This document shows, piece by piece, positions 40,410 to 63,698 of a DNA stretch of 64,000 nt. Numbering within the stretch: position 1 is the first letter of the stretch; each line of letters opens with the position of its first letter. Made by a program: the position numbers and the translations under genes. The DNA comes from Antedon mediterranea (taxonomy: Eukaryota > Echinodermata > Crinoidea > Comatulida > Antedonidae). The notes beneath the pieces were generated by a model. The model saw nothing but the letters and a program-made list of their open reading frames with translations, searched no databases and was not told the origin of the DNA. The stretch is taken from positions 23,914,288 through 23,978,287 of the forward strand of contig NC_092676.1 in assembly GCF_964355755.1 (NCBI RefSeq), in the 5' to 3' direction.

Positions 40410-42684
40410 CTATTTCTTAGCTAATATATCAAACTTGTTTGGAACGATTACATCCATAATTATTGAACTATCGTCAAGGCTAGGAAGCTTGTTTCCTTCA
40501 ACGCCTGAGAGATGAAATCGCTTGAAAATCATTACCAGGAACATCCCAAGTGCTGTCATCGACATTTCCTCAGCTGGACATTTTCTCAAACCTGGCGATA
40601 ACAAAAACTTTTATTTATTATAACTTTGAGTATCCTAAATTCAAGAAAATAATGGGGGAAAAAATGGTAATATTATTTAACATGTATTTGTGATATGATC
40701 AACGAATAAAAGTGGTAGATTACTGAACAAAAGAGAAAATAAAACTGTAACCCATACTTGTAATGACACTTATATATAATAATTCAAAGTGCCGAAAATG
40801 GAGCAACGAATTTTCTATTGATACTGGGTCAGATCATACTAGAAAATCTCACAAAATGCGGTATAATCCACACATCTTACCTGATCCAAATGGCATAAAG
40901 CCAGGCGGATCGTTCTCCATGTCCAACCAACGTTCAGGTTTGAAAGCTAACGGCTCTGGCCAAGATTCTGCGTCATGATTTGGTCCCCAAAGGTTTGAGA
41001 AAATGATAATACCCTTCTTAAATGTGTATCCTTCAAATTGTGTGTCCTTACTTGAACGACGCGGCAATAATTGACCAAATGGGGTAGCCAGTCTCAAAGA
41101 TTCCTGTAGAAAAATAATTTAGTGTTTGATTATTTTTATCATTTTCTTGGAGGCCATCTTCCACTAACAATAGATAGTTTACGTAGAACATACATTATAC
41201 ACATAAACATAGCATTAGTAGGCCCACTACATAATTACAATGTATAATTGAGAGGTACTTATAGTGAAGATGATGCTCAAAATGTTAAGAATTATCAACC
41301 TTGATAACTGCATTCAGATACGGCATTTTCCTAATTACGCTTTCCGAAACATCATCGACATCCGATATAAAGCGGTCTATCTCCTCGCGTATCTGAAATA
41401 ATTACGGTATATGTGTTAATACGGAGGGGTGCGTAAAGTTACATGAAAATCAAATATTAACTAGTTAAATATTAACTTAAAGACATTTTTTATTTACTAT
41501 TTATAAGACTATAGACTTGAAACTGAAATTTACAATACCTTATCTTGAACATCACTGTGCTGTATTATGAACACAATAGTCCACTGAATTGCACTGCTCA
41601 GGCAATAGTAAAACGGAAAGAGATGCTTAACATTGTTAACAATCTCTTTCACATCCAATGTGGTTTCCCCAACACCTCCTAAGTAACCGTCTATCAGATC
41701 TTGGATGGTATCTTTCTTGAAGGTTTCGCGATGCGAGTCGATAAACGGCTGCAACGCGGTTTCCAGTCGGCCATGATCTTGGCGCATGGATGTGTACATT
41801 GGTGTTCTCCAAAACCATTGTACAATATTCGCTGGCGATCCCTTAAACCTGTGATTGATATTGCTCACGAGTGTCTCCTCTAATTTGTGAAATTTCTCAT
41901 CGTCATAGTCGAATCGTTCACCTCGGTTGATTGTGGATGCTAGTAGAATATTACAGACAGCCTGGTTCAGAAGATCACTGGCGTTGACAAGCTCGTTCTT
42001 GCCAAAGACAGTACTGACTGCTTTAGCCTCTTTCTTTATTAGACCCTCTATGTCCATACATTTTAATACCTCTTGTAAAAATGGTTTTCTTTCTTCTGCG
42101 CCTCCTAACCAGTCTTCCCACGAAATACTTCCTACAAATATTCAAATAAAAAGAAATCTCTTGCAAATATAATAAAAGTTACTTTTTGCCTACTGTACTC
42201 TTTTGTTAAATGCTATACCATTAATGCAAACTTATGGTGACTAAATTTTAAGAAATTCCATGAAGTCAAATAAACTAAGTGTGTAGGTGTTATAACCATA
42301 ACCTTATAATTAACATGAATTGATTGGTTGATTGCTCAGTCTTATCTTATCTACTATGCTTATCTACAACATACTTATTAGGCCTACATTACCTGCAAAT
42401 CCGATCTTCTCTAGTACCGCAGGCCTCCACCTATCTCTGCTGAAGTTATTGTCATTTTCTGATCCAGGTTCATAAGCCTTCTCAAGTACACTAGCACCGC
42501 TAAGTACGATAACATCTCCCACTGGGCCAAAATTTATCTTAAATACTGGTCCGTATTCCTTGCTCCATCTAGTATACGTCTTTGGAGGTTTACCTTCATA
42601 TTTAATTTGGGGTATATGTCCTAATATCAAAGATTTCGGCGGTCCTCGCAATTTCTTGCCCGATTCTTCGCTTTCTGTAGCCAT
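40410..42684 (-). CDS. Atypical cytochrome P450, gene 1 of 3
   Basis: Five exons (42684-42393, 42131-41539, 41392-41300, 41103-40881, 40591-40410) give 460 residues. P450 landmarks are the K-helix E-x-x-R (ESLR, start of exon 4), FKPERW, and the heme loop FGSG|LRKCPA spliced across exons 4/5, with Cys405 as the proximal ligand. Two features are odd. The N-terminus goes from MATESEESGKK straight into the proline hinge, with no membrane anchor. The I-helix site, where AGxDT(T) should be, reads about PFYYCL (270-275), so the usual acid and threonine are missing. Loss of that pair is known in P450s that rearrange peroxides (CYP74, thromboxane and prostacyclin synthases), so a non-monooxygenase role is possible but unproven. 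A CACGTG and a CACGC core lie about 115 bases upstream. Substrate unknown. Confidence 0.92.
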
Positions 42685-43755
42685 GTTATGTTGTTGATTT
42701 CAAAATGTCTAATGATCAGATCTTACTGTAGAAAATCTGAATAATCCGACAACTATTCAATTTAAATATTCGTCGGAAAGCCAGGATCAATGAGAGGAGC
42801 ACGTGACCACGCTATTTAACCTATGAAATCATGCATAGCGCTTTATAATTTAAAACGGAAAAACGTAATAGATAAGCGATGCCGAAATCACATTTTCTAT
42901 AGTTACCAGTCTCTCGCACTGAAAAAAACACCTCATACGCGGGGTTCCAACCCAAAAGCACACAGCGTAAAGTAGGCACAGAAGCTCCGATGGAAACGTT
43001 TTCATTTAGAAATTAATTGTACGTCGATAGATGAGAATTTCTCCATTGTTAAGTGTTCTTAGTTTTATTTTATTAACTATTTATATTAATTATTTAATTG
43101 CAAATGTGAAACGAAACATTTTTATTATCGTAACACGGAAACGATTATATAAAATAACAATCGGCATGTACGGTAAACAACAGTGCAGTATTTATACCAT
43201 TTATAGTAGGCCTACCATATTTATATCTAACGTAATAACCACAACCTCAACAGTCAATGAATATAAATACAGTAATATGAAATCCTAGAAAAATATAAAG
43301 CGATGTTATAGCCGAAAACATCTTATTCACGGGTGATAGCAATATACATAAATTAGTATATATTGATTCGAGAAATGAAACTCGTTCAAACATTACAACT
43401 ATAGGAGAATTCTAGCCTAAGTTACATTTTGTTTCGTCTCAAATGTTTGAAAGAAGTAGGATACTGCACCTTCAACCTCCCACCATCGGATACGAATAAT
43501 CCATCTTCGGTTAGGATTATCTCTCCCTTACCCTAACACCCCCCTCCCTCCCCTGCTAAAGGATCTTCTAATATCTCACCAATATCTTTGATCATCTCAT
43601 ACGAAGTTAAATAAGAAACATTTTTCCAGTACAATTGCTCAAATTAGCCTATTGATATAGGTCTCCGTATAAAATACATTATGTTCTCTGTTAAATCACA
43701 GAAAAAAATAGTTTCAATTAGTCTCATTTTAAATGTGATCAAAACAGATATTTGC
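42685..43755. other. Spacer between P450 genes 1 and 2
   Basis: Contains the putative promoter of gene 1 (CACGTGACCACGC near 42800) and the downstream flank of gene 2. The 85-codon plus-strand frame at 43031-43288 has no recognised domain. Confidence 0.5.
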
Positions 43756-45850
43756 TCAGTTAATCTCTGACAATAATCTGTTTGTAGCAAGTATATTAAA
43801 CTTGTTTGGAAGGATGGTGTCCGTCAGCATGAAGCTGTCGTCCAGGCTAGGAAGCTTTTCTCCATCGACGCCTGCCAGATGAAATCGCTTGAAAATCATT
43901 ACCAGGAACAGGCGTAGTGCCGTCATCGACATTCCCTGTGCTGGACATTTTCTCAAACCTGGTGATGAAAATTTCCAACATATTAGTATACAAACATTAA
44001 AAACAAAATCAATGTTTACATTAAAAGTCATGGGAAAAGAGCAAGCAAAGTTTCTAATATAAGATCACGCTATATTGGCAAATCTGAGAAACGTTCAAAT
44101 CAAAATCTTACCTGATCCAAATGGCATAAAGCCAGGCGGATCGTTTTCCATGTCCAACCAGCGTTCAGGTTTGAAAGCTAACGGCTCTGGCCAAGATTTT
44201 GCGTCATGATTTGGTCCCCAAAGGTTCGAGAAAATTGGCGTACCCTTCTTAAATGTGTATCCTTCAAATTGCGTGTCCTTAATTGGACAATGCGCCATTA
44301 ATTGACCAATTGGGGTGGCCAGTCTCAAAGATTCCTGTAAAAATAAATATAAGTAGGCCTATGTTATTTCGTGGTTGGTTCTCACATGGACGCAACACAA
44401 TGACGTATACGCGCAGTTTAGTGGGAACCAAGCTTACAGTTTCTTGTGTCGATAAAAAAAGTAAGATCGCGCGTATGTTGATAACAATGATTAATGATTA
44501 AAGACTATATTCACCTTGATAACTGCGTTTATATACGGCATTTTGCTAACTATTATATCTTCGGAGATATCCTCTAGGTCCATTATATATCGGTCAATCT
44601 CCTCATGCACCTTAAACAAAAGATTAGTCAATTTATACGACGAAGAGAGGTGATTTATCACAACAACGTATTAACATGATGTTATTGCATTTACCCCCGC
44701 ATTTACCGTAGGAATAATAATAATAATAGATTTTATACGTAATACCTTATCCTGAACATCACTATGCTGTATGATGAACAAAATAGTCCACTGTATTGCA
44801 CTGCTAAGAGAGTAGAAAAACAGAAAGAGATGCTTAACATTGTTGACAATCTCGTTCACATCTAAAGAGGTTTCCCCAACACCTCCTAGGTAACCGTCTA
44901 TCAGATCTTGGATGGTATCCTTCTTGAAGGTTTCCCGATGCGAGTCGATATACGGCTGCAACGCAGTCTCCAATCGGCCGTGATCGTATCGCATAGCGTT
45001 GAAGAGTGGTGTGCTCCAAAGCCATTGCAGAACATTCACTGGTGATCCTTTAAACTTGTGTTGACTGTTGCTCACAATTATCTCCTCTAGTTTGTGAAAT
45101 TGCTCATCTGTATATTCAAATCTTTCACTTCGGTTGATTGTGGATGCAAGTAGAATATTATTGTTTGCTTGGTTCAGAAGATCGCTGACGTTGACAAGTT
45201 CGTCACCATACAAAACGGTGCAGACTTCTTTGGCCTCTTTCTTTATTAGACCCTCTATGTCCATACGTTTAAATACCTCTTGTAAAAAATGCTTTCTGTC
45301 TTGTGCGCCCTCTAACCAGTTTTCCCACGAGATACTTCCTGCATATCAATATTAAACAAGATTAAAGCCGATTGGTTGATCATAAATACTGTAATCTGTG
45401 TTATTTTGATGTCAGATTAGAAAATTATGTAGGCTTGTGATTTAACTGTGGTTGTGAACTAATTTCAAATTTAAAATATATGTAGGCCTATATAATATAA
45501 ATATATTTGATTAGCTTACCTACAAATCCGATTTTCTCTAGTGCCGGAGGCCTCCACCTATCTCTGAAGTTATTGTCATTTTCAGAGTCAGATTCATAAG
45601 CCTTCTCAAGTACACTGGCACCGCTAAGTACGATACCGCTTCCCATTGGGCCTAGACCTACTTCAAAAACTGGTCCAAATTCATTGCTCCATCTTGTCCA
45701 TGTCCTTGGAGCTCTCCCCTCAGATCGAATTTGGGGTAAATTTCCTACTAAGTAATATTGTGCTGGTCCTGATAAATCCTTTGAAGCTCCCGAAACCGGA
45801 CATTTAGTAGGCTTTGTATTTGAGTCTTCGTTTTCGCTTTGTGTAGCCAT
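43756..45850 (-). CDS. Atypical cytochrome P450, gene 2 of 3
   Basis: Five exons (45850-45520, 45338-44746, 44610-44515, 44334-44112, 43958-43756) give 481 residues, closely similar to gene 1. Exon 2 (593 nt) and exon 4 (223 nt) have the same lengths as in genes 1 and 3. ESLR, FKPERW and FGSG|LRKCPA (Cys419) are present. The I-helix reads about LFFYSLSSAIQW (283-294): the acid is replaced by Tyr and the alcohol is Ser rather than Thr. There is no N-terminal hydrophobic anchor; the first 40 residues are polar, with a CPVSGASKD stretch not found in genes 1 and 3. The C-terminus is extended (NRLLSEIN) relative to gene 1. Intron 3 contains a fragment of MITE family C. It probably arose with gene 1 by recent tandem duplication. 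Substrate unknown. Confidence 0.92.
44385..44435. mobile_element. Fragment of MITE family C in P450 gene 2 intron 3
   Basis: TAGTGGGAACCAAGCTTACAG matches the right end of the full element at 52815-52997; only this end is recognisable here. Confidence 0.6.
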
Positions 45851-46882
45851 TGTTGATTTAATATACAGTATGCTTGATTTCCGGACTTGTTATGCCGGAT
45901 GAGTTCGACTGATCGTCATGGCATGGATTAATGCTTCGCTGTTTCATGGCCATCGTATAAATAATTCTTTAATTACAATATTTTTCAGATACTTACCGAC
46001 AGTGAGTTGTAAAACTCCTGGTACTGGTAGGCCGACATATTTTTGTTTGTATATAGGCCTATAAGCACGTTTTAGTAGATATGTTATAATGCATCATTTG
46101 CGCCGCTACATGAAATTGTACGTTTGACATTCAGGTTTTTTTCTTTAAGATCATATTTAATGTGAACTTGAAAGTGGTTTAAGGATAAACTGACTGAAAC
46201 ATTATCGTAATTTCGTAACATCACTGTATAACCACTGAACAGTCAACAAAACTAGCAATAGGCCTGCATAGACATATAGGGCAATATAACAATTCATCAT
46301 TGGAAATAAAATGAAATTTATGACGATGTTTTGTTTGTAAAAGACATTAAAACAACATAATAGAAAAAAAAACTTTATTATAAATTATCAATAAAATAAT
46401 TGTGAATAATAAGCAGTGGAGAAAGCTAAAAGAATTGAAAATATTAAAAATGTAGACATGGTTATTCACTTTGTTACTCTATCATTTTAAAATAATTGTG
46501 TTACTATGTTAGTATAAAATAGACTATGTGTAAACATCAATCAAATCATCTATCACATTAGCGTTCACTTTAATTTATCATAGGCCGTGTTTCTGCAGCC
46601 AAAAATTAACCGATAAACTGCCTGTGGAAACGGGGTTTAACCAGGGAGTTGTTATTAGAACAACTCCCTGGTTTAACCAATTTCATTTGAGAAAAATTAA
46701 CCGTTAATTATCTCATTCAAATCGGATAATTATCTGGAAAATGCGTAAATGTTTAACTTTTGATTGAAGGACAAATTATTGCGTTGTGATTGGGAAACAC
46801 TGCCATATTTATTTTTGGTCTGAATGTTAAATAAAATACACCTAGTATAAAATATTGATTTGGAATTCTCATTGTGGGAAGA
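45851..46882. other. Spacer between P450 genes 2 and 3 with strong hairpin
   Basis: No gene. A hairpin with 20-base arms (one mismatch) and a 5-base loop, around CCAGGGAGTTGTT, lies at 46634-46678, inside a longer region with AAATTAACC words on both sides. It may be a small palindromic element. Confidence 0.55.
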
Positions 46883-48298
46883 TTATTTCCTAAGTGTTGC
46901 AACAACGTTAAAGTTCTTTGGATGAGTTGTTCCGGCCTCCATGTAGACATCATCCAAAGTTGGTATTTTCTCTCCTTCGACACCTTTAAGATGAAATTTC
47001 TTGAAAATCGTCACTGTGAACATGCGCAGTGCTATCGGTGCAACCTTGTATCCGGCACATTTCCTCATACCTACAAAATATGACAAACATGTATGTGACA
47101 AACGTGACAAACATAATTATGACAGACAGTCCCACACAGTCATGCAAACCCATGTACAATACATTTACCGCGTAAAGGCTAATTTACACAGACGAGTGGT
47201 AACGGTAATAAAAAATATAGAATCTAATATTATTCCTTATGACCATTTACACACAACGCGGAGTAGACGGGCGGTTTCCGCTCAGGATTGATACAGATTC
47301 AACGCGGGACACGGTTTCCGCTTACCGTTACCGCTCGTCTGTGTACATTGGCCTTAACATGGAATGAACGCGAGTTGGTTGTTTATTTCGCGTAGGATTC
47401 GAGGTTTACATTCTCGAAAACACAGTTGGCAAATTTCGTAGATTACTTGATTGATTGCGCGTGTATCAAACGAATATCGCGCGAGATATTTAGTACCGTA
47501 CTGTATTTCAGCGTATCTTTTTTGGAGCACACTAAATTTACGTTGAACAAAAACAACTCACCCATAGTTAAATGTTACCATAAATGACTGGAGAGCCACT
47601 AGGCACTGTTTGTTTACACCTTTGGATCATGTCGGCCTTTTGTGGAAGTCGACATATTTATTCACAAGACTAATGTACAGCACAACTCAACTTTTTACAC
47701 AAGTTCGTAATATTACAAAATAAAAAAAACACCATATAAATACGAAAAGAAAACAATTTGAAAAGAATGTGACAGAATCCCTTCCATGTTCGATTACACG
47801 TGTCCGAAAACTATGAAGTATATTTACCTGAGCCAAATGGAATAAAACCATGTGGATATTCTTCCTTGCCTATCCAACGATCAGGTTTAAAAAGGAGTGG
47901 TTCAGGCCAGATTTCTGAATCGTGATGCGGTCCATAGATACTTGCGAAAACAGTAGTATCTTTCTTAACACGATAGCCCTCAAAGTTGACGTCACTGTGC
48001 GGACAGTGTGGCAGTATCTGGCCAACTGGTGACGCCAATCGTAAAGATTCCTAAAGTAATTTGAAAGAAATAGATTCTTCATAATTAAATGTAATCCGTT
48101 TAATAATTAAAGTCTAGGACTAATTAATAATATAACTGATGATTTAATGACAACAATAATGATGATAGATGATTAGAATATTTATAAATAGTGACGGAAG
48201 GAGATAATTGATGAAAATGTCGCCAAGGATTACCAATAGTAAATTAATCTCTGTGCTATCAGAAGTGGTAAAGGGCACACAGGCAAACTGTGTACACT

Positions 48299-48332
<34 letters not shown>

Positions 48333-50495
48333 TTGTTCCACCACCAAAACTAGGAGCGAGTCGTCATCTAACCCGTTATTGTTGGCTCTTTATAAATATT
48401 TCATTTGTTGATATATACGTGGTGTACCGCAAACTTTATATCAACATTTGATTTCGCCATGCAAACCTTTAAACAATAAATATGTTATTGCTAACAAACC
48501 TTGATAACTCTATTCACATATGGCATCTTGCTAGTTATGATGTCATCTGAAACATCACCGTCAACCAAAACCTCGTCTATCTCATCGTGCACCTGACAGA
48601 TACAGAAACATATACAATATAAACATATTTAATATATAATCGAAAAAAGGGAAAACGATGCGAGATAAGTCTTTGTTATCAACTAGCTTCATCAATATAA
48701 TGTTTACACTCAAATTACTAGAAACGCAACGCAGGCGAGTTGACCAATCACAAGCGACAGTTTGAATAATCTATCGCTTGTGATTGATGGTTAAATCACT
48801 TACGTTGCGCCACGTCCTAGTGTTGCGTTAAGACGCAACGCAAGGACGTTGACGCAACGCAGGCGACTTGATTAAATAATTCATCGCTTGTGATTGGTCA
48901 AATCACTTACGTTGCACTTACACGTCCTTGTGTGACGTGATGTGTCTCTAGCGGAAACCACGCATTACGTTAGGTTTACGTCACGACACGTTGTGTCATA
49001 GTGGAAACCGATCTTTAGTAGCTTGTGGTTAAATTGATAGTGATGCAACTCTCACCTTCTTTTGGACATCTTCGTGAGTCACTAACAAAAGAATAGTCCA
49101 TTCTATCGCACTTCTCAGAGAACATATTGACGGGTAGAGATGCGTTGTACCGTTGATTGCGTCATCTACATCAAACGACGTCTCACCAAGATGTCCTAGA
49201 TATCCGTCTATAAGATCCCGGATGTTGTCTTTATCGAAGTTTTCACGATGTGATTTAATGTACGGTTGCAACGCTTCCTTTACATCCTTGTCAGTTCTGC
49301 GAATTGCGCTGGCAGCAGGTGTGTACCAGAGCAGGCGCGAAAAGTTTACCGGATGACCGAAAAGACTATGGGTGTTATTACTAACAATAATCTCCGACAA
49401 TTTTTTGAATTCGTCGTCAGCGTACTCGAAGCGATTACTTCGGTTGATCGTGATCGAAAGGAGGATGTTGTTATTGGCTGTGTTAATGAGATCAACGATG
49501 TCGACAGTTTTATCTTTCTCAATGACGTCACAGACAGCATTCACTTCTCGTTTGAACACACCTTCCATGTCTATGCTTTTTAAAACTTCGAAAAATAGAT
49601 GTTTTCGTTCTTTAGCATGTGGTAGCCAGTTTTCCCATGTGATGCTTCCTGAAACAAAAATATACAGATACTTTATCACATGGGGTTCAGATTTATCAAA
49701 CATGCTTAACAAAAAATCATCTCAACTTTTTTTTTTTATTTCAAGTTTTTTAACATCCTAAGCAAATGTTTTTACAGTACATAATTTTTATTTTAAATGT
49801 GAGCTGACGAAGAACTATAGTTGGATGAAATCTAAGATTGTCTCAGGAAAATAAATAATGTGCACTTAACTCTTATCTCGACTTGAAAGAAAATTGATTT
49901 AAACAATATGAGTATGATGATACTCATCAACAAAAGAATACAAAATTCATCTTTCAACAAACCATACAAGAGTTTGTTCTTTACTTCAGATCAACATCCA
50001 TTGATATTAATCTGATACCCAAGCAACATAATAAATCTATCCATGTGTCTGGGATGAACGTCTTAAGCTCTGTCTACACTATCAAACTAGTTTAACAGAA
50101 AAGGTGTGATGTGTCTAAATATGGTAGTGGTACGTCCAAATATGGTAGTGATATGACATCATCATGTCCATAATATGGGCACTTGATAGTGTAGACAAGG
50201 CTTTACCTTCATATCCGATCTTTTTCAGTATATACGGCCTCCATCTATTGTTAAAGTTAGCGTCATTATCAGAACCCGGTTTGAAGGCTGCTTCAAATTC
50301 TTTGGCTCCATTGATCAACATAGCCTCTCCCATCGGCCCCATACTGAAGCCAACCACGCTACCGTACTCTTTAGCCCATTTTTCGTAAGTAACGTGGGCC
50401 TTCTCGTCCAATTGCAGCAGGTTTCCAAAATAGCATACTTCTCCCGGGCCTGTTAATTTTTTACCAGGCCCTTCCTCTTGAACGTTACTTGCCAT
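46883..50495 (-). CDS. Atypical cytochrome P450, gene 3 of 3
   Basis: Five exons (50495-50207, 49648-49056, 48592-48500, 48050-47828, 47070-46883) give 461 residues. It has the same exon pattern as genes 1 and 2, including the 593 nt and 223 nt exons, but is more diverged. The K-helix is ESLR and the meander FKPDRW. The heme loop FGSG|MRKCAG (Cys404) fits the FxxGxRxCxG signature fully, unlike genes 1 and 2 (CPA). The I-helix reads about PSICSLRSAIEW (269-280), again without the acid of AGxDT. There is no N-terminal anchor (MASNVQEEGPGKKLTGP), so the protein is predicted soluble or peripherally bound. Its introns carry MITEs of families A, C and D; one abuts the exon 1 donor. Substrate unknown. 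Confidence 0.92.
47175..47356. mobile_element. MITE (family D) in P450 gene 3 intron 4
   Basis: Terminal inverted repeats: AATTTACACAGACGAG...GGTAACGGTAA at left and the complementary TTACCGTTACCGCTCGTCTG at right. A shorter copy lies at about 53901-54005. Confidence 0.75.
48720..48965. mobile_element. MITE (family C-like) in P450 gene 3 intron 2
   Basis: Repeated and inverted blocks of ACGCAACGCA and CAATCACAAGCGA match the interior of the element at 52815-52997. Two partial, inverted units are arranged back to back. No coding sequence. Confidence 0.65.
50065..50203. mobile_element. MITE (family A) abutting P450 gene 3 exon 1 donor
   Basis: Its left end is AAGCTCTGTCTACACTATCA. On the gene's strand the element begins within the donor sequence itself: exon|GTAAAGCCTTGTCTACAC, so the bases just after the GT belong to the terminal repeat. 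Confidence 0.8.
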
Positions 50496-62100: not shown

Positions 62101-63698
62101 CCTCAGTTAGGTAGTCACCAGGCAAATCGTAAGTAGTAGCTAGTTCTGCTATTGAGATCTGACCAGTCTCTTGTAACTGATCATTGATTTTCTCTGCTAA
62201 CCTCTCGAGATACTCTCTATGGGAAAACAATGACATAATTAACCAACCTCTGCATCATCAAGAACCGTCAGTACAGTACTATTTTGTCATCAAAACTAAG
62301 AGCCATGACATTTTGTTTTTAACAACTTACGTGTTAATGAGTTGTCCTAAAATCAGGTTTACATTTCGGTCGTTCTTCACAATTTCATTAGCCTTTACCT
62401 CCACATGAGTAAAGTCAACATTAATAATCTGGTAAAGAAAAACGTAAAAAAAAAAGTAAAAATTCTTTTATTAACTCTAAAGCTCTGTCTATACTATCAA
62501 ACTTGTTTGCCAAAAAAGCGTGATGTGCCCAAATATGGTAATTGTGTCCATATATGGGCACATCACAATTTTTTGTTATATAAAGTTAGGGTCTACATTT
62601 GACCTTTATAGTACAGTATCTTCATTAAAACTTTATTTTAAAACGCTTCTATATGTTTTTCGCACCTTTGAAGAAGTAATTTAGGCCATGAGGACATAGT
62701 AAATCCTATCTTGAAGTAATTGTATTTCTGCTCTTGCTCTGGTAACTGTCATGCAACATATGTATTTTTATTTATCATTATTATTAGTCTATTTAAATAA
62801 ATCATACCTGTTGTAGATCCACAAGGTTAATCCTTCCTGTAATCAAAGTAAATTTAATCAATCAATTAATTAATAAATATAAATATTTAAAAATTAAAAT
62901 AAAACAGTATTTATTTCCATATATTAAGCCTCAGTTCAACTTGTTATATTCTCTGAAAAGTAATATAAATATGATTTTGAAAGAATCAATTCAATTACCC
63001 CCATGAACAATTAATTCATCACTTATTTCCTTGGTTAGCTGGGATGGGGTTAGATATTCTTTGCCGTCGTTTGTATAGATAACATTTAGCACACTACTTT
63101 CAACAAGTTTGGTCACAATTTCGATACAATTTCTTTCAGACAATCTGTAAAAAAAAAAAATCAATTGATTAAAAAATGCCCCAAAATGAAATGGGATAGA
63201 GGGCGCTATGTACATAAAATCGTACATCAAAGAGCGCCGTGAAAAAAAATTAGACCGATTAAAAACGGTAAATACTGACATTTTAATTCTATAATTTAAA
63301 AAGGCAATTTTATGAGATCTAGCCTATGCCTAGGCTAGGCCTCGGTCTATTTAGGGGCTTAGGCCTACACTATTTAGGCCTATAATCATTTCAAATCGAT
63401 AAGGCCTAGCCTAGCTGTACCGTTATTAAATCGTTCAAGCCTGATTGATTGATGATGAGCCGCCGCCGTCTAACTGTGTGTGTGTAAATGATGTGAGTCG
63501 GTTGAAGGCCTAGCCTAGGCTAGCCTATAAATGGGGCATCCATATTAAAGGAACGACATTTTTAATTAACTTGCATTGTTAAGTTACAAATAAATGACAA
63601 ATGCACAAAACACCATACTTTGCTGCTGTGGTAGAAAGCTGTGCTCGTTGAAAATCTGCTGCAAGCCGTTTCACTTCTTCCCATTCGGAACTCGCCAT
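56106..63698 (-). CDS. UFL1: E3 UFM1-protein ligase 1
   Basis: UFL1 scaffolds transfer of UFM1 from UFC1 to targets at the ER, notably ribosomal uL24 during ER-phagy and ribosome quality control, together with DDRGK1 and CDK5RAP3. Eighteen exons give 791 residues (human 794): 63698-63619, 63144-62999, 62836-62808, 62428-62331, 62216-62102, 61928-61798, 61509-61451, 61165-61019, 60723-60548, 60252-60082, 59578-59347, 58981-58858, 58732-58566, 58365-58235, 57838-57758, 57536-57451, 57184-57050, 56373-56106. Family segments seen are [26 protein letters not shown], the winged-helix N-terminal repeats, [15 protein letters not shown], the [13 protein letters not shown] junction, and a Lys-rich linker with nine Gly (about 420-428). 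All introns are GT-AG. The gene is intact and loaded with intronic repeats. The start matches the family N-terminus. Confidence 0.97.
56417..56500. mobile_element. Possible LINE 3' tail in UFL1 last intron
   Basis: An (ATTC)n run followed by TTTCTTTTATTTCGGGTAGT and an A-rich stretch resembles the tail region of a minus-strand LINE. No coding part is visible, so this is a weak call. Confidence 0.3.
56798..57019. repeat. 17 bp minisatellite in UFL1 intron 17
   Basis: About 13 copies of GGGGACACCACTATAAA, with a CCCCTATTAAG variant block in the middle. It lies 31 bases past the exon 17 donor (57050 on the minus strand). Confidence 0.95.
57968..58120. mobile_element. MITE (family A) in UFL1 intron 14
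   Basis: Diverged copy with ends AACCTCTGTCTACACTCAAA and TTTGAGAGTATAGACAGACC; the interior GATGTCATATCACTACCAT is retained. Confidence 0.75.
59158..59292. mobile_element. MITE (family A) in UFL1 intron 11
   Basis: Well preserved: AAGCTCTGTCTACACTATCA and its exact complement at the right end, flanked by TA on both sides. Confidence 0.85.
59823..59955. mobile_element. MITE (family A) in UFL1 intron 10
   Basis: Diverged outer ends; TTGTCTACACTATCAAACTA at left and AATAGTGTAGACA at right remain, with the family interior between them. Confidence 0.7.
60310..60531 (-). pseudogene. LINE C-terminal fragment in UFL1 intron 9
   Basis: The minus strand reads an uninterrupted peptide of about 70 residues with a zinc-knuckle-like [19 protein letters not shown] motif followed by [15 protein letters not shown]. 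It is the C-terminal end of a non-LTR retrotransposon, of a different type from the one at 22880-23865. It shares the UFL1 strand but lies wholly in the intron between exons 9 and 10. A short piece with the same end (CCTAGATGCAAGTTCAAAC) recurs at about 58423. Confidence 0.7.
61260..61397. mobile_element. MITE (family A) in UFL1 intron 7
   Basis: Ends AAGCTCTATCTACACTATCA and TTTGATAGTGTAGACAGAGC; the interior has inverted ATATATGG...CCATATAT motifs. Confidence 0.85.
62480..62606. mobile_element. MITE (family A) in UFL1 intron 3
   Basis: The left end AAGCTCTGTCTATACTATCA is intact; the right end is diverged (GTCTACATTTGACCTT). Confidence 0.75.

Follow-up and report, generated by a model that had tools for sequence, protein, structure and literature searches.

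It was concluded that the products of eight cytochrome P450 genes of a single clade, three of which stand in a row in the analysed DNA, probably function in another way than ordinary P450 oxygenases. Judged by sequence, the eight genes are members of the CYP2 clan, i.e., the drug-metabolism type. CYP2-clan P450s are the textbook membrane-bound monooxygenases, and a subfamily that was maintained and duplicated after losing its anchor together with the proton-relay acid and the reductase-docking surface would be a natural experiment in which a P450 ceased monooxygenation.

Three intact P450 genes in the window

The window, which is the whole analysed stretch of 64,000 nucleotides, corresponded to C7:23914288-23978287 of a 354 Mb genome. 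Three intact P450 genes (g1, g2 and g3) were located in a row on its minus strand at positions 40410-50495, and these outer limits coincide exactly with the g1 stop and the g3 start. Exon-by-exon assembly, with no forced step, resulted in five exons for each gene, separated by GT-AG introns of the same phases 1-0-0-1 (Table 1). The proteins of 460, 481 and 461 aa, respectively, contained no internal stops and matched the Pfam p450 superfamily profile over near full length (5e-64 to 5e-68). The ExxR motif (ESLR), the PxRW motif (PERW or PDRW) and the Cys-ligand loop (FGSGxRKC) were kept in all three proteins, as the first-pass annotation had stated. Its reading of PFYYCL, LFFYSL and PSICSL at the AGxDT position was likewise confirmed in an alignment that used the I-helix Trp and the HxDVQxK block as fixed points.

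Table 1. Coordinates of the P450 genes, their exons and I-helix motifs. Positions of g1, g2 and g3 are those of the window; the C6 and C5 loci are given in contig coordinates.
Feature	Position	Strand	Remarks
g1 exon 1	42393..42684	-	start codon 42684; polar N-terminus MATESEESGKKLRGP, anchor absent; in-frame TGA 6 codons upstream
g1 exon 2	41539..42131	-	spans C helix to I helix
g1 I-helix motif	41599..41616	-	PFYYCL replacing AGxDTT
g1 exon 3	41300..41392	-	
g1 exon 4	40881..41103	-	ESLR K helix, PERW
g1 exon 5	40410..40591	-	Cys-ligand loop FGSGLRKCPA through stop
g2 exon 1	45520..45850	-	start codon 45850; polar N-terminus
g2 exon 2	44746..45338	-	
g2 I-helix motif	44806..44823	-	LFFYSL
g2 exon 3	44515..44610	-	
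g2 exon 4	44112..44334	-	
g2 exon 5	43756..43958	-	
g3 exon 1	50207..50495	-	start codon 50495; polar N-terminus
g3 exon 2	49056..49648	-	
g3 I-helix motif	49116..49133	-	PSICSL
g3 exon 3	48500..48592	-	
g3 exon 4	47828..48050	-	
g3 exon 5	46883..47070	-	
C6 relative	18210563-18212948		I-helix motif PSSCSL
C5 tandem of four	28237025-28261593		I-helix motifs GASLSL, GASISL, GATITL, GATITL

Imperfect repeats (gcgttgcgt, acgcaac), perhaps belonging to a small transposable element, were observed in the g3 introns at about 48600-49030 and at 47250-47360. The nearest recognisable neighbour gene found was represented by a UFL1 exon (E3 UFM1-protein ligase 1, PF09743, 1.8e-21) at 62991-63323 on the minus strand. 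Elsewhere in the genome, a compact and apparently complete cluster of 12 Hox genes was noted at C2:7827797-8206132, with one posterior gene (11/13b) inverted. The genes, assigned by eye, were Hox1-8, 9/10, 11/13a, 11/13b and 11/13c, and the genome held one such cluster. Hox11/13a-c are an ambulacrarian signature, which makes an echinoderm or hemichordate the likely source of the DNA, whereas a COX1 search gave no hit. The same 12 Hox genes have been reported for a feather star (PMC7351957).

An eight-gene clade within the CYP2 clan

Genome searches with g2 and C5D as queries, followed by spliced alignment, revealed five further intact relatives, one on C6 and four on C5, giving eight genes at three loci. 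Identities were 49-75% within the group of the window and C6 genes, 53-86% within the C5 group and 31-35% across the two groups. In a tree of 28 sequences, all eight genes formed one clade with a support of 99/98 inside the CYP2 clan, the sequences of which were split from a two-gene outgroup at 100/100. This tree was rebuilt without CYP8A1 and CYP74A, because branches longer than 3 had unsettled the clade in an earlier tree that included both. Thus, the anchor-less, tandemly expanded clade with an I-helix change that had been suggested earlier was not only recovered but widened. In the motif, the C5 genes (GATIT, GASLS) had changed less than those of the window (PFYYC, PSICS), and intermediate steps could be visible in them.

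The dN/dS ratios ranged from 0.16 to 0.40, with 0.34 for g1-g2, 0.16-0.18 for g1-g3, g2-g3 and g2-C6, where dS was high, and 0.32-0.40 for the C5 pairs. Such values indicate that the proteins are maintained by purifying selection, which together with the eight intact reading frames makes decay very unlikely. A Gln in SRS5 (position 351 of g2) was shared by all clade members and by no other sequence of the alignment, and at a dozen other positions the clade had an invariant residue that was rare elsewhere.

The kinship with oxylipin P450s that had been suggested for the window genes was not supported by their placement. The best phmmer hits were CYP17, CYP2 and CYP1 enzymes (CYP17A1, CYP2C5, CYP2A13 and CYP2R1), and the clade profile scored 217 bits against CYP2C5 and 195 against CYP17A1, as opposed to 50 against CYP8A1 and 45 against CYP74A, the CYP reference sequences being taken from PDB alignments. 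The hallmarks of the CYP74 clan are an I-helix Asn, a PPV motif and a nine-residue insertion in the heme loop (PMC8124189). The Asn was absent from the motif in all eight genes, and so were the PPV motif and the insertion, since the clade reads LRLATPIGQL or LRIACPAAQV and its FxxGxRxC spacing is normal. It is therefore extremely improbable that the eight proteins are true members of the oxylipin families (CYP74 clan, CYP8A1, CYP5A1); the absence of the acid is what they have in common, and any such likeness is a functional analogy and not membership.

The I helix

The [AG]Gx[DE]T[TS] motif that is usual in helix I of the CYP2 clan was absent from the clade, and the acid was missing in all eight genes. 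The alcohol position (-7 from the Trp) was occupied by Ser in g2 and g3 and by Cys in g1, with Ser or Thr there in seven genes of the clade. Hence, the claimed loss of the acid/alcohol pair held for the acid but, apart from g1, not for the alcohol. Across the clade the two positions read YC, YS, CS, LS, IS and IT. No Asp or Glu was found from HLF/HLY/NFI to two residues before the I-helix Trp, so that the acid is missing whichever register is chosen. A normal AGxDT aligned elsewhere, which would have undermined the claim, was not seen in this stretch, the I helix being anchored gap-free by W..HxDVQxK.

Downstream of the motif, the clade aligned with other CYP2-clan P450s without any shift at 1.72 BLOSUM per residue. 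Upstream of it, the unshifted alignment scored -1.72 per residue and a shift by one was best (+0.19), which indicates that the clade lost one residue within A-G-x-D/E-T or adjacent to it, and this residue may have been the acid. We infer that this loss would remove the wide turn normally forming the oxygen groove. An AlphaFold2 model of the exon-2 peptides, i.e., of the contiguous part, reached a pLDDT of 36 and was discarded.

About 55 further P450 I helices were read in the genome as a sample of the best hits rather than the full CYPome, and the acid was missing in only two of them. One was a P450 outside the clade at C3:4250905-4251774, which carried His instead of the acid (AGTHT), and the other was an exon at C4:328183-328707, which read NGYSTS with Ser instead of the acid and which looks CYP26-like. 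A large tandem array of at least 10 P450 genes with normal AGTDTS-type motifs was observed at C9:19725000-19801000. CYP5A1 probably keeps its Glu (AGYEII) and would then not be a clean precedent for acid loss. In cnidarian CYPomes the motif is kept in most genes, with CYP20 as the stated exception (PMC8110760). Acid loss as a marker of oxylipin enzymes, as the first-pass annotation had used it, could not be upheld, since Spook (CYP307A1) of the CYP2 clan and CYP20 are also devoid of the motif (PMC3766648, PMC8110760).

The N-terminus

In all eight clade genes a short polar leader stood straight before PGP with no hydrophobic segment; in every sampled CYP2-clan paralogue with a recovered first exon, a strong hydrophobic segment preceded PGP (maximum 19-residue hydropathy of 1.9-2.9). 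An N-terminal ER anchor, which is usual in the CYP2 clan but is not the basis of membership, was thus absent throughout the clade, and the polar start without an anchor that had been claimed for g1-g3 proved correct. In g1, an in-frame TGA was found six codons ahead of the ATG and no AG lay in the interval, which leaves no site for splicing an upstream exon ahead of that ATG; an unseen anchor exon was thereby excluded for g1.

Initiation at the proposed ATG is a prediction, which leaves some room for an artefact in the form of an anchor exon missed upstream or of a normal AGxDT that was misaligned. We considered this very improbable, given the in-frame stop of g1, the like start of all eight genes before PGP and the Asp/Glu-free stretch before the I-helix Trp. 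The clade proteins are probably cytosolic. Against this, CYP2 enzymes whose anchor has been truncated are able to remain associated with membranes and with the reductase.

The reductase-docking face

P450 reductase binds through its FMN domain to positively charged residues (Lys/Arg) of the C helix and nearby loops in CYP2B4, CYP2D6 and CYP1A1 (PMC7794467). In a MAFFT alignment, the C-helix Trp was lost from the clade and replaced by A, H or F, and the basic C-D loop of the GMGKR type was deleted. The net charge from the C helix to the C-D loop was -4 to 0 in the clade versus +1 to +6 in 18 other P450s, with no overlap (U=0, p=6e-5, where p is indicative as the sequences are related). The loss of the docking patch is a separate line of evidence from the I helix and the anchor, and the three losses point one way. 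Independent support was therefore provided by the missing basic patch for a predicted loss of ordinary reductase-driven monooxygenation.

Proposed mode of action

We tentatively proposed, at somewhat less than an even chance, that the clade is a cytosolic CYP2-clan subfamily which would be independent of the ER reductase and of O2 activation and would have peroxides as substrates or function as an isomerase or lyase. A heme-thiolate enzyme working without reductase and acid was regarded as the best explanation because three losses, each disabling a part of reductase-driven O2 activation, coincide in one clade that kept its heme site. The common ancestor would have lost the I-helix acid with one turn residue, the C-helix Trp and the C-D loop together with its Lys/Arg patch, would have lacked or lost the ER anchor, and would have kept heme binding. 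Without NADPH-P450 reductase and acid-assisted O2 activation, the ferric heme-thiolate may act directly on a substrate bearing an O-O bond, such as a hydroperoxide, an endoperoxide or H2O2, which would be isomerised, dehydrated, cleaved or peroxygenated. Candidates for polar contacts are the SRS5 Gln shared by the whole clade and the I-helix Ser/Thr. Both reductase independence and peroxide chemistry are thus read from the pattern of losses; the clade lacks the I-helix Asn that is catalytic in CYP74 and CYP8A1, and the known type of peroxide chemistry would therefore have to proceed without a matching residue.

It is quite possible, though below the peroxide reading in our estimate, that these proteins are unusual monooxygenases that still receive electrons from the reductase, b5 or a soluble donor, and protons from the substrate, from water or from the Ser/Thr that is left. 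The parallels would be P450eryF and, presumably, Spook. The canonical ExxR motif and Cys loop and the hydroxyl kept at position -7 in seven of the eight genes are what a monooxygenase would have, and Spook is a CYP2-clan precedent that acts in a steroid pathway without the helix-I and helix-C motifs (PMC3766648). Against such a monooxygenase, the anchor and the basic docking patch were lost together in the clade, whereas the hydrophobic N-terminus is retained in Spook. An improbable alternative is that the genes encode non-catalytic heme proteins, in which the P450 fold serves as a ligand or hormone binder, a carrier or a sensor. The catalytic and electron-transfer features are gone while the fold and the heme ligand are under purifying selection, as would be expected of a binder, but metabolic diversification is suggested by the strict conservation of ExxR, Cys and SRS5 and by the fact that two of the loci hold tandem duplicates.

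Extending the peroxide proposal, a redox-partner-independent class might have arisen in the ambulacrarian CYP2 clan independently of CYP74, CYP5 and CYP8, by the loss of the anchor, the I-helix acid with the turn residue and the docking patch in one ancestor, and might produce, in the cytosol, oxylipin-type metabolites or others derived from peroxides. This broader scenario was considered possible but rather unlikely. If peroxides are used, the clade would represent a further independent origin of such chemistry in animals, besides the CYP74-clan, CYP5 and CYP8 enzymes.

Comparison with known systems

The clade shares the fold, the clan, ExxR, PxR and the Cys loop with CYP2, CYP1 and CYP17 enzymes (PDB 1dt6, 6b82) and differs from them by the absence of the anchor, the I-helix acid, one I-helix residue, the C-helix Trp and the basic C-D loop. 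In the insect ecdysteroid enzyme Spook (CYP307A1), the helix-I (GGHSA/V) and helix-C (H/YxxPR) motifs are lost, while helix K, PERF, the heme motif and a hydrophobic N-terminus are kept (PMC3766648). The clade deviates from CYP307 in both respects, as its I-helix letters differ from GGHSA/V and its N-terminus is not hydrophobic. In the open-licence literature on animal CYP2-clan P450s without the anchor or the acid, only Spook was found described, CYP20 being outside the clan.

The CYP152 peroxygenases resemble the clade in being soluble and in having the acid-alcohol pair replaced. They differ in that they are bacterial and carry, at the acid-alcohol position, an Arg-Pro to which the carboxylate of the fatty acid is bound (PMC5818669); the clade has no Arg-Pro there. 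The prostacyclin synthase CYP8A1, an endoperoxide isomerase, has an I helix without the acid, as in the clade, but has the I-helix Asn and sits with the CYP7/CYP8 enzymes. In the CYP74 clan of allene oxide and epoxyalcohol synthases, including CYP440A of Branchiostoma, the acid/Thr motif is absent and catalysis is free of O2 and reductase; by analogy, the same may apply to the present clade, which belongs to a different clan.
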